64,000 nt of DNA from Rhizobiales bacterium Ga0077537 (GTDB taxonomy: Bacteria; Pseudomonadota; Alphaproteobacteria; Rhizobiales; Hyphomicrobiaceae), in the NCBI GenBank assembly GCA_001464955.1, contig LNEM01000008.1:62001-126000 (forward strand), given 5' to 3'. Position 1 is the first letter of the stretch, and each line of letters opens with the position of its first letter. Position numbers and translations under genes: made by a program. A model generated the notes under the pieces. That model saw only the letters and a list, made by a program, of their open reading frames with translations. It did no database searches and was not told where the DNA came from. This document shows, piece after piece, positions 21,514-55,076 of the stretch.

Positions 21514-22524
21514 ATGACGACGCAGCCCGAACGCCCCACGGTGACAACCGTGAGATTGCAGAACATCGCCCAGTCCTATGGCCAATCCGCGGCCCTGATG
21601 GCCGCCGTCGAACTCGGCGTCTTCACGGCCATTGCCAAGGGAGCCGGGACGTTCGACGAAATCGCGCGCGCCGTCGGCATCCTGCCGACCAACGCGGAGC
21701 GGCTCGTCGTGCTGCTGGCGGCGGCCGGTCTCGTCGAGAAAGCGGGCGGGCGCTTCCGGAACGCCGCCGACGTCGAGCGGTTCCTGGTCGAGGGCGAAGC
21801 CGGCTACATGGGGCCATGGATCACCTTCACGAAGCCGCAGTGGAACGAGTGGGGCCGGCTCGCGGAGCACCTCAGGGTGCCACGCCTCAAACGCATGGGT
21901 TCGATCGGCGACTTCACGGTCGAGGACGCGCGCCGCTATCACAAGGCCACCTACTCGATCGGCATGGGCGCGGGGCGTCGCTTCGTGCGCCAGGTAGACC
22001 TCTCGGGCCGCGCCAAGATCATGGATATCGGCGGCGGATCGGGCGCCTATTGCATCCAGGCCGCCAAGGCGCACGCCCACATCCGGGGCGAGGTGCTCGA
22101 TCTCGCGCCCGTCTGCACCGTGGCGCGCGAATTCCTCGCCGAGAACGGCGTTGCTGACCGCGTGACGGCGACGCCCTGCAATTTCGTCACCGACCCGTTC
22201 CCGACCGATTGCGACGTCGCCATCATGGCGTCCAACCTGCCGATGTACAGCCGCGAGGTCATCGCCTCGGTGATCGCCAAGACGCATGCCGCGCTGCTCT
22301 CCGGCGGACAGATGCACCTCATCGGCGAGACCACCAACGACGAGCGGACCGGACCTTGGGGGCCGGCCTACTGGGGTCTCGGACAGGCGATCTCGGAGTC
22401 GGAGGGCCTCGCGCACTCGGAAGCCGACGTCATCGGCTATTTCGAGGCGGCCGGCTTCAAGGATATCCGCGTCGAGGAGTTCATTCCCGGCTCCCTCAGC
22501 CGGATCTTCGGCACCAAGGCCTGA
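21514..22524 (+). CDS. O-methyltransferase-type SAM methyltransferase
   Basis: The 336-residue protein has the two-part architecture of small-molecule O-methyltransferases. An N-terminal winged-helix dimerisation region (ELGVFTAIAKG, LPTNAERLVVLL) precedes the SAM fold with motif I IMDIGGGSGAYCIQ and the acidic residue in LDLAPV. The usual catalytic histidine region is replaced by NLPMYS, so catalysis may be atypical. GAGGAGACGGCCC supports ATG 21514. Two flavin-oxidoreductase genes follow at 16- and 52-base gaps, suggesting one pathway for a secondary metabolite or xenobiotic. Confidence 0.85.
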   Translation: MTTQPERPTVTTVRLQNIAQSYGQSAALMAAVELGVFTAIAKGAGTFDEIARAVGILPTNAERLVVLLAAAGLVEKAGGRFRNAADVERFLVEGEAGYMGPWITFTKPQWNEWGRLAEHLRVPRLKRMGSIGDFTVEDARRYHKATYSIGMGAGRRFVRQVDLSGRAKIMDIGGGSGAYCIQAAKAHAHIRGEVLDLAPVCTVAREFLAENGVADRVTATPCNFVTDPFPTDCDVAIMASNLPMYSREVIASVIAKTHAALLSGGQMHLIGETTNDERTGPWGPAYWGLGQAISESEGLAHSEADVIGYFEAAGFKDIRVEEFIPGSLSRIFGTKA

Positions 22525-52116: not shown

Positions 52117-54030
52117 ATGAGCACGCCCAGCAAGACCCCACTGCTCGACCAGATCCAGTCCCCCGCCGATCTCCGGTGCCTGCCGGAGAAGGATCTCTCC
52201 GTCGTGGCCGCCGAGCTTCGCCAGGAGACCATCGATGCGGTCTCGGTCACAGGTGGCCATCTCGGCGCCGGACTGGGCGTGATCGAACTGACTGTCGCGC
52301 TCCACTACGTGTTCAATACCCCGGATGATCGGCTCATCTGGGACGTCGGGCATCAGGCCTATCCGCACAAGATCCTGACCGGGCGGCGCAATCGCATCCG
52401 GACGCTCAGACAGGGCGGTGGTCTTTCCGGGTTCACCAAGCGTACGGAGAGCCCTTACGATCCGTTCGGGGCGGCCCATTCCTCGACGTCGATCTCCGCC
52501 GGCCTCGGCATGGCGGTCGCGCGCGACCTCGACGGGCGCGACAACAACGTCGTGGCCGTGATCGGCGATGGCGCGATGAGCGCCGGGATGGCCTACGAGG
52601 CCATGAACAACGCTGGCGTGCGCAACGAGCGGCTGATCGTCATCCTCAACGACAACGACATGTCGATCGCACCGCCGGTCGGGGCGCTGTCGCATTATCT
52701 GGCGCGCATCACGTCGTCCGGCGCGTATCTCCAGCTCCGGGAGTCGGCGAAGCAGCTCGCCAAGCGGCTCCCCAAGCACTGGGAGCGGCGGGCTGCGCGC
52801 ATGGAGGAGTATACGCGCCACCTCTGGCAGGGCGGGGCGTGGTTCGAGGACCTCGGCTTCTATTACGTTGGGCCCATCGACGGGCACGACCTCGACATCC
52901 TGCTCGCGGTCCTCAAGAACGCACGGGACGCCCGCAAGGGTCCGATCCTCGTTCATGTCGTGACCAAGAAGGGCAAGGGATACCCCCCCGCGGAGGCCGC
53001 CGCCGACAAGTACCACGGCGTGAACCAGTTCAACGTCATCACCGGGGCGCAGGCGAAGCCGAAGGCCAATGCGCCGAGCTACACGAAAGTGTTCGCGGAA
53101 AGCTTGATCCAGTCGGCCCGGAAGGACCCGAAGATCGTCGCCGTCACCGCCGCGATGCCGTCGGGGACCGGGCTCGATCTCTTCGGCAAGGAATTCCCGG
53201 ACCGGACCTTCGACGTCGGCATCGCCGAGCAGCACGGCGTCACCTTCGCGGCTGGTCTCGCGACAGAGGGCTTCAAGCCGTTCACGGCCATCTACTCCAC
53301 GTTCCTGCAGCGTGCCTACGATCAGGTCGTGCACGACGTCGCCATCCAGCGCCTGCCGGTGCGGTTCGCGATCGACCGGGCCGGGCTCGTCGGGGCCGAC
53401 GGGCCGACACATGCGGGCGCCTTCGATCTCTGCTATCTCGGATCGCTCCCGGACTTCGTGATCATGGCGGCCGCCGACGAGGCGGAACTCGCGCACATGG
53501 TGGCGACGGCCGTCGCCATCGACGACCGGCCGTCGGCGTTTCGCTATCCACGCGGCGAAGGGGTCGGCGTCGAAATGCCTATCGAGGGCCAGCCGCTCGA
53601 GATCGGGCGCGGCCGCATCGTGCGTGAGGGATCCGCCGTCGCGATCCTCTCGCTCGGAACACGCCTCGCGGAGAGCCTCGCCGCCGCCGAGCAACTGAGC
53701 CTGTTCGGCCTGCCGACGACAGTCGCGGACGCCCGCTTCATGAAGCCCCTGGATACGGCGCTCATCGACCGTCTGGCGCGGGAACACGAGGTTCTCGTCA
53801 CGGTGGAGGAAGGTTCGATCGGCGGCTTCGGCAGCCACGTGTTGCAGTACCTTGCCATGAATGGGCGGCTGGACCGCGGGCTCAAGGTGCGGCCCATCGT
53901 GCTACCGGACGCGTTCATGGATCACGACAAGCCGGAAAAGATGTACGAGCGGGCGGGGCTCAATGCCTCGGGTATCGTGCAGACCGTGCTCGGAGCGCTC
54001 GGTCGCGGCGTACAGGCCAACGAGATCTGA
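52117..54030 (+). CDS. dxs: 1-deoxy-D-xylulose-5-phosphate synthase
   Basis: The 637-residue thiamine-diphosphate enzyme condenses pyruvate and glyceraldehyde-3-phosphate in the first step of the MEP isoprenoid pathway. The ThDP motif begins with [16 protein letters not shown]. Catalytic histidines appear in [19 protein letters not shown] and [18 protein letters not shown], and the C-terminal domain has DARFMKPLD. The length is normal. Ribosome binding is weak at ATG 52117. The sRNA gene follows about 100 bases after the stop. Confidence 0.97.
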
Positions 54031-54094
54031 CAGCGCCGCTGTCAACGAGTTTTTCCACAGGCCCGGGCAAGACAGCAGTTGTTCCGTGCAAGCA

Positions 54095-54124
54095 TTGGAC
54101 CGCGGCCATCCCAGTTCGTATCTT
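54095..54124 (+). promoter_or_regulatory. Promoter of the small RNA gene (candidate)
   Basis: TTGGAC at 54095-54100 as a -35 element is separated by 18 bases from TATCTT at 54119-54124 as a -10 element. Transcription would begin at about 54131-54135, just ahead of the first hairpin. It is distinct from the dxs gene, so the RNA could be made independently. Confidence 0.5.
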
Positions 54125-54130
54125 ATGCTC

Positions 54131-54228
54131 CATAGTGTGCGTACCTGACGATCCGCTTTCCCCCATCCCCCCCGCGGAAATCAGGATTTTGCAGCTCCGG
54201 CAGCGCGTCTGCCGGAGCTGTTTTTTTT
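54131..54228 (+). ncRNA. Candidate small regulatory RNA, two-hairpin C-rich type
   Basis: A compact transcription unit of ~95 nt fills part of the gap between dxs and tlyA. Hairpin one is CCTGA-cgat-CCGC paired with GCGG-aaa-TCAGG (54144-54185). It presents a 17-base loop (54157-54173) that is almost all C, preceded by TTT, and so could pair with Shine-Dalgarno sequences. Hairpin two is an intrinsic terminator. From memory, this layout matches the alphaproteobacterial suhB/MmgR (alpha-r8) RNA family, but the match needs a covariance search. A leader or dxs 3'-UTR fragment is the alternative. Confidence 0.65.
54192..54228 (+). terminator. Strong intrinsic terminator
   Basis: A perfect 12-pair stem (54192-54203 with 54209-54220) with a 5-base loop is followed at once by eight T residues (54221-54228). 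It ends the small RNA and any read-through from dxs, and lies 95 bases before the tlyA start. Confidence 0.9.
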
Positions 54229-54323
54229 GGTGTTCGAAGCCGCTCGTGGCATGTAGCGCCCATGCTGCCTTCCGGCAGCCGCCAGATCGCGTTGCATCGC
54301 GCGCGCGCCCAACCCTTCGAGCC

Positions 54324-55076
54324 ATGAGCACAGACACGCCACGCCAGCGATTGGATCAGGCCCTGGTCAGCCAGGGGCTCGCGCCGACAAGGGCACGGGC
54401 GCGCGATCTCGTGCTCAGGGGCGAAGTGCTCGTCGGCGGCCAGCCGGCCTCGAAGCCCGCAATGATGGTGGCGGGAACAGCGGCGCTGGCGCTGGTTTCG
54501 GGGCCGGCGGACTATGTTTCGCGGGGGGCGCTGAAGCTTCGAGCCGCGCTCCGGCACTTCGGGTTCGAGGCCGACGGCCGTGTCGGGATCGATGTCGGCG
54601 CCTCGACCGGCGGATTCACCGAGGTTCTGCTCGCAGCCGGCGCGCGGCGGGTCCATGCCGTCGAGAACGGCCGGGGCCAATTGCATGCGCGGCTTGCGGC
54701 CGATCCGCGCGTCGTCTCGATGGAAGCGTTCGACGCGCGCCGGATCGACGCCGTCGCCGTGCCGGACGCGGTCGGCGCCATCGTCGCCGACGTGAGCTTT
54801 CTCTCGGCGACTGCCGTGCTTCCTGCTGCCCTGGACCGGGCCGAGCGCGGCTGCTGGCTCGTGGTGCTGGTGAAGCCGCAGTTCGAGGCGCCGGCCGGGA
54901 CGGTGCCGCGTGACGGCATCGTGAAGGACGACCACGTGCGGCAGGCGGCGGTCGCCAGGATCGAGAGCTGGATCGCTTCCCGACCCGGCTGGCGGCTCGT
55001 CGGGACGATCCCGTCGCCCATTCACGGCGGCGACGGCAATGTGGAATTCCTCACGGGAGCGGTCTTCGATGGCTGA
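54324..55076 (+). CDS. tlyA: TlyA-family rRNA 2'-O-methyltransferase
   Basis: A 250-residue protein with an N-terminal S4 RNA-binding domain (RLDQALVSQGLAPTRARARDLVLRGEVLV) and a FtsJ-like SAM domain (GIDVGASTGGFTEVLLAAGA, VADVSFLS, LVKPQFEA). The family methylates ribose of rRNA (16S and 23S in actinobacteria); earlier it was called hemolysin. ATG 54324 precedes the family N-terminus; the longer frame passes through the terminator and is not coding. Its last 8 bases overlap the start of the next gene. Confidence 0.9.
   Translation: MSTDTPRQRLDQALVSQGLAPTRARARDLVLRGEVLVGGQPASKPAMMVAGTAALALVSGPADYVSRGALKLRAALRHFGFEADGRVGIDVGASTGGFTEVLLAAGARRVHAVENGRGQLHARLAADPRVVSMEAFDARRIDAVAVPDAVGAIVADVSFLSATAVLPAALDRAERGCWLVVLVKPQFEAPAGTVPRDGIVKDDHVRQAAVARIESWIASRPGWRLVGTIPSPIHGGDGNVEFLTGAVFDG

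Follow-up and report, generated by a model that had tools for sequence, protein, structure and literature searches.

On the evidence of sequence and fold, the interval between dxs and tlyA in the 64-kb stretch of DNA analysed here (the window) holds a real sRNA gene, which is previously undescribed as far as Rfam and the literature go. We are fairly confident that this gene stands on its own and codes for a trans-acting sRNA of about 90 nt, the loop of which would pair with G-tracts in mRNAs. A compact sRNA gene had already been proposed at this position by a sequence-only reading, and this proposal is well supported, as eight genomes have retained both hairpins and the UCCCCC loop at one locus.

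Structure of the sRNA gene

The predicted transcript covers positions 54141–54228 on the + strand, as derived from the fold z-score and the homologues, with an uncertain 5′ end between 54131 and 54141. Its first hairpin (54144–54185) consists of an outer helix, in which CCUGA (54144–54148) pairs with UCAGG (54181–54185), and an inner helix of UCCGC (54152–54156) with GCGGA (54174–54178). It exposes the loop UUUCCCCCAUCCCCCCC at 54157–54173, which confirms the first hairpin with a C-rich loop of 17 bases in the sequence-only reading and represents the putative target-pairing site. Both C-runs of the loop are fully unpaired across the ensemble. The hairpin is followed by an intrinsic terminator (54191–54228) with a loop of 5 nt and a stem at 54191–54221; the eight T residues expected there are present at 54221–54228, whereas the expected 12 pairs need to be corrected to 13, including a terminal G-U pair. 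The gene shows by sequence a conserved exposed candidate seed and a U-rich tail after the terminator. Compared to dinucleotide shuffles, the whole unit reached a z-score of −5.2 with none of 200 shuffles as good, and hairpin 1 of the window copy alone a p of 0.006. Across the 64 kb, the pattern C5-N(1–4)-C5 has two matches on the + strand and none on the − strand.

The promoter-like pair assigned previously, TTGGAC (54095–54100) and TATCTT (54119–54124), is weak and was not confirmed: the hexamers are separated by an 18-bp spacer and match only 3/6 and 4/6 consensus bases, and a promoter consensus scan listed no sigma-70-like site at the sRNA, where no −35 element is recognisable either. Alignment with the relatives (alignment A1, complemented by reading) favours CATAGT at 54131–54136 on the + strand, which occupies the position of TGTAAT and CGTAAT in the other copies. 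This is the more likely −10 element, with transcription expected to start near 54138–54141. With this start, derived from the alignment with relatives, the transcript would be about 88–92 nt long and not 95 nt as proposed before.

Homologues and neighbouring genes

Homologues of the sRNA are present in eight genomes of two related genera, including the window copy. Three belong to the same genus as the window (G001, G002 and G003) and four to a second genus of the family (G004, G006, G008 and G010), where the copies are located downstream of dxs. Within the window's genus, two of the three other genomes yielded the element in a DNA search, and the copy of G003 was obtained by a model search and reading. 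The motif UCCCCC is present in the loops of all eight copies. The stems differ wholly between the genera (CCUGA/UCAGG and CUCCGC/GCGGAG vs. CUUUCC/GGAAAG and GCUGCC/GGCAGC), but the hairpin, its internal bulge and the large loop are kept in both. Conservation of loop and stems in related genomes, the lack of which had been named among the grounds for rejecting the gene, was observed for the loop in 8/8 and for stem pairing in 7/8 homologues, the latter being the seven with a readable hairpin 1; because the helices were taken from the own fold of each sequence, pairing is given by construction and indicates persistence of the hairpin rather than independent covariation. Hairpin 1 outperformed its shuffles in each of the eight copies individually (p 0.0005 to 0.03), although the stem of G003 is weak (p 0.02) and competes with an alternative fold, and the G004 copy prefers a different fold. 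A formal covariation count on the three-sequence alignment A1 yielded three compensated pairs in the terminator, all from within the window's genus, and none in hairpin 1.

Outside the two genera, the sRNA was not found after dxs in the loci examined, which came from more than 12 other genera of this family and from several additional families of the order; this absence is uncertain because some of the assemblies break off at this point or have a different dxs copy. In Bradyrhizobium, the regions examined downstream of dxs consist of a different sequence. When 397 genomes of the order were searched with a model, the window was the only strong match, using filters which lose weak matches. The weak matches of the covariance models R1 and R2 in the family and the order proved to be mostly plain G+C-rich terminators (those read as terminator-only being L012, L013, L132, L200–L202, L224, L225 and L227), so that an E-value of about 1e-5 obtained with R1 or R2 does not indicate homology. 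The genome of the window contains a second dxs copy (G000:C9:106145-106720, L165), which is not followed by such an RNA; by reading, the next gene there resembles one for a type 2 isopentenyl-diphosphate isomerase.

The upstream neighbour in the window is dxs, coding for 1-deoxy-D-xylulose-5-phosphate synthase (52117–54030, +; PF13292, PF02779, PF02780), and the downstream neighbour is a gene for a tlyA-like S4/FtsJ rRNA methyltransferase (54324–55076, +; PF01728, PF01479). The sRNA starts about 110 nt past the dxs stop codon on the same strand and ends 95 nt upstream of tlyA. The order dxs-sRNA-tlyA, as read previously, holds for the window, whereas the usual layout in the relatives is dxs-sRNA-sod-tlyA with sod on the opposite strand (G001, G002, G006, G008 and G010); tlyA was seen after sod wherever the examined sequence extends that far. 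The sod gene codes for a superoxide dismutase, which is of the iron/manganese type by Pfam for G001 and by reading for the others. It is convergent with the sRNA, which faces its 3′ end, in these five genomes and in G003. The proteins encoded by the convergent sod genes (L009, L010, L146, L169, L174, L207) start with MNRR, resembling a twin-arginine signal. The window locus is devoid of sod, the sole SOD of the genome being encoded elsewhere and distant in sequence (39% identity), and G004 carries other genes at the position of sod. In G003, no dxs is present upstream, and a divergent gene for a luciferase-like oxidoreductase takes its place, while sod and tlyA follow downstream. A mechanical GTG reading frame extends from the sRNA region into tlyA (54135–55076) and was taken as a chance frame because sod separates the two in the relatives. 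A literature search retrieved no description of an sRNA between dxs and tlyA.

DnaA-box-like sites and further C-loop hairpins

Between dxs and the sRNA, about 90 bp before the inferred start, lies the DnaA-box-like element TTTTCCACAGG (54051–54061, +). It contains the only TTWTCCACA of the window, against 0.12 expected, and TTWTCCACAGG is present three times in the whole genome of 4.84 Mb. In all eight homologues, TTATNCACA with at most one mismatch starts 90–98 bp before the inferred RNA start, whereas shuffled upstream sequences contained the box in a mean of 0.38 out of eight cases and a maximum of three; as the eight homologues are related, their boxes do not represent eight independent events. 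The sequence around the box aligns poorly between the two genera. In G003, two perfect inverted boxes are present, and the box stays with the sRNA despite the missing dxs gene. Exact copies of TTATNCACA are rare, being present in 10 of the 235 loci examined, seven of which are sRNA loci or overlap with them (L028, L136, L207 and L230–L233), while L219 had been taken for the motif itself.

A weak model match at an unrelated locus of G030, which belongs to a third genus (g8), turned out to be another C-loop hairpin with the loop UUCCCCCUCUCCCCC and a terminator, and this element is conserved in G027, G028 and G031 (loci L233 for G030, L230 for G027, L231 for G028 and L232 for G031). All four species of this second group carry TGTGGATAA at −76 and CGTGGATAA at −32, one box being perfect and the other near-perfect. 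That a box and a C-loop coincide at two loci is the most unusual result of the analysis; this was noticed post hoc and not predicted. C-loop hairpins followed by terminators were also seen in other genera of the family (L025:1501-1596 and L026:1501-1594, both on the − strand), and no DnaA boxes were seen upstream of these.

The conserved box at a fixed distance suggests, as a working hypothesis, a transcription factor site, possibly one for DnaA, and DnaA-linked transcription of the sRNA is possible. A more far-reaching reading, which we regard as doubtful although conceivable, unites the C-loop sRNAs of the two unrelated loci and three genera in one class under the control of DnaA. The initiator would bind the boxes at their fixed distances, the level of an sRNA binding to G-tracts would follow DnaA activity, and its targets would thereby be translated in step with the cell cycle. 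A search of the open-access literature retrieved no described sRNA linked directly to DnaA.

Alternative readings, related RNAs and likely function

Because the sRNA persists when dxs or sod changes, its location argues against a main role as dxs 3′ UTR, tlyA leader or sod antisense RNA. The element might represent the terminal part of the dxs transcript, that is, a terminator after a stabilising hairpin and perhaps a processed 3′ UTR-derived RNA, in line with the shared strand, the short distance to the dxs stop codon and the lack of an obvious own dxs terminator in several relatives by reading. Yet it persists in G003 next to the oxidoreductase gene, a terminator would not need the conserved UCCCCC loop, and the dxs gene of the window has a terminator-like hairpin of its own (54028–54044), so we consider this explanation unlikely. 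The hairpin in question overlaps the dxs stop codon and is followed by a T-rich stretch. Even less credit is due to a role as tlyA leader or attenuator acting in cis, as the short distance to this gene in the window might indicate, or to an antisense RNA against the 3′ end of sod, as the convergent arrangement in six relatives might; an opposite-strand gene lies between the element and tlyA in these same six genomes, so that by synteny a leader function is not general, and an adjacent sod is missing in the window and in G004. Either role has a very slim chance of being correct. With the sRNA kept and dxs gone, G003 speaks for a gene in its own right and against both a dxs 3′ end and a tlyA leader.

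The conserved boxes of both groups would also fit an element acting mainly as DNA, bound by DnaA or linked to replication, in which the hairpins would be no more than a terminator. However, there are only one or two boxes per locus, no turn in GC skew and hence no sign of an origin was detected at the sRNA site, and a DNA site requires no constraint on an exposed RNA loop and paired stems, which makes this reading quite improbable. Almost no credence is left for membership in the suhB/MmgR (alpha-r8) family, to which the sequence-only reading had likened the gene. Both are short RNAs of alphaproteobacteria that end in a terminator and carry a C-rich stretch of unpaired bases, but the covariance model RF00519 (gathering cut-off 41 bits) gave no match at E ≤ 10 in positions 53800–54500 and none at E ≤ 1 in the seven homologues. 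As a positive control, the genuine suhB/MmgR of the same genome was detected at G000:C25:115610-115684 (L014, L133) with 67.3 bits. It carries TTTCCTCCC, and by reading, its UUUCCUCCC segment sits between two hairpins, whereas the C-tracts of the window sRNA are located in a hairpin loop. CCTCCC is absent from the 3 kb around the sRNA gene, and no 10-mer of the UUUCCUCCC type was found. The empty search, the separate real suhB and the missing UUUCCUCCC together leave the alpha-r8 assignment unsupported, and as far as the covariance model goes it is refuted.

Returning to the reading as an independent trans-acting sRNA, we compared the gene with other known RNAs. The window produced no match to any Rfam 15 family at or above the gathering cut-off, and Rfam scans of the homologues likewise gave none above it. 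BjrC68 (RF02353) shares the layout of hairpin and terminator, and the G003 homologue aligns over the full model; this best score among the homologues amounts to 20.9 bits (E 0.25, gathering cut-off 39), many unrelated Rfam models reach similar scores on this short stretch, and the window itself gave no match at E ≤ 10. In GsrN of Caulobacter, the most conserved part is the C-rich loop exposed by its 5′ hairpin, and this loop was shown to pair with a G-tract of the katG leader (PMC5869019), which is thereby activated. The window sRNA also exposes a C-rich loop in its 5′ hairpin but is devoid of a sigma-EcfG promoter (GGAAC-N-CGTT); GGAAC-N15–18-CGTT occurs in the window at 21760 and 57395 only, corresponding to chance level. 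None of the flanking genes read beside the sRNA is ecfG, nepR or phyR, and no sequence link to GsrN was found. PmaR of Agrobacterium forms a spoon-like structure of a long stem with a C-rich terminal loop, regulates many mRNAs and is reported only from Agrobacterium and one close Rhizobium (PMC6234868); the similarity to the window sRNA lies in the C-rich terminal loop, as compared by description. NfeR1/alpha-r14 and other cuckoo RNAs contain three hairpins with hypervariable stems and unpaired anti-Shine-Dalgarno loops (PMC7143759). They resemble the window sRNA as small RNAs with unpaired loops on variable stems, but have several loops of the CUCCUCCC type, whereas the window sRNA has one C-loop hairpin without CCUCC.

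In the proposed mode of action, a hairpin of 10–11 pairs would hold open the loop with its two C-tracts, and the terminator hairpin with its U-tail would end the RNA and probably serve as Hfq or stability element. The loop would pair with G-tracts (GGGGGA-like) in or near the ribosome-binding sites of several mRNAs and alter their translation in one direction or the other, by analogy to the C-rich loops of GsrN and PmaR. Targets are expected among G-tract mRNAs because the loop carries a double C-tract in place of the common CCUCC anti-Shine-Dalgarno motif; the suggestion that the C-run pairs with Shine-Dalgarno sequences is thus tenable for G-tract sites and falls for the CCUCC-type core, which the loop does not contain. 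Apart from the sRNA itself, only two sites of the genome match the exact complement of the loop, GGGGGATGGGG; neither is a sense translation start or a convincing target, indicating that real targets would pair partially.

The sRNA probably regulates G-rich messages. It is a conserved sRNA without an Rfam entry, from an alphaproteobacterial group in which few sRNAs have been characterised. If the upstream site is functional, it would provide a direct link between an sRNA and the replication initiator.
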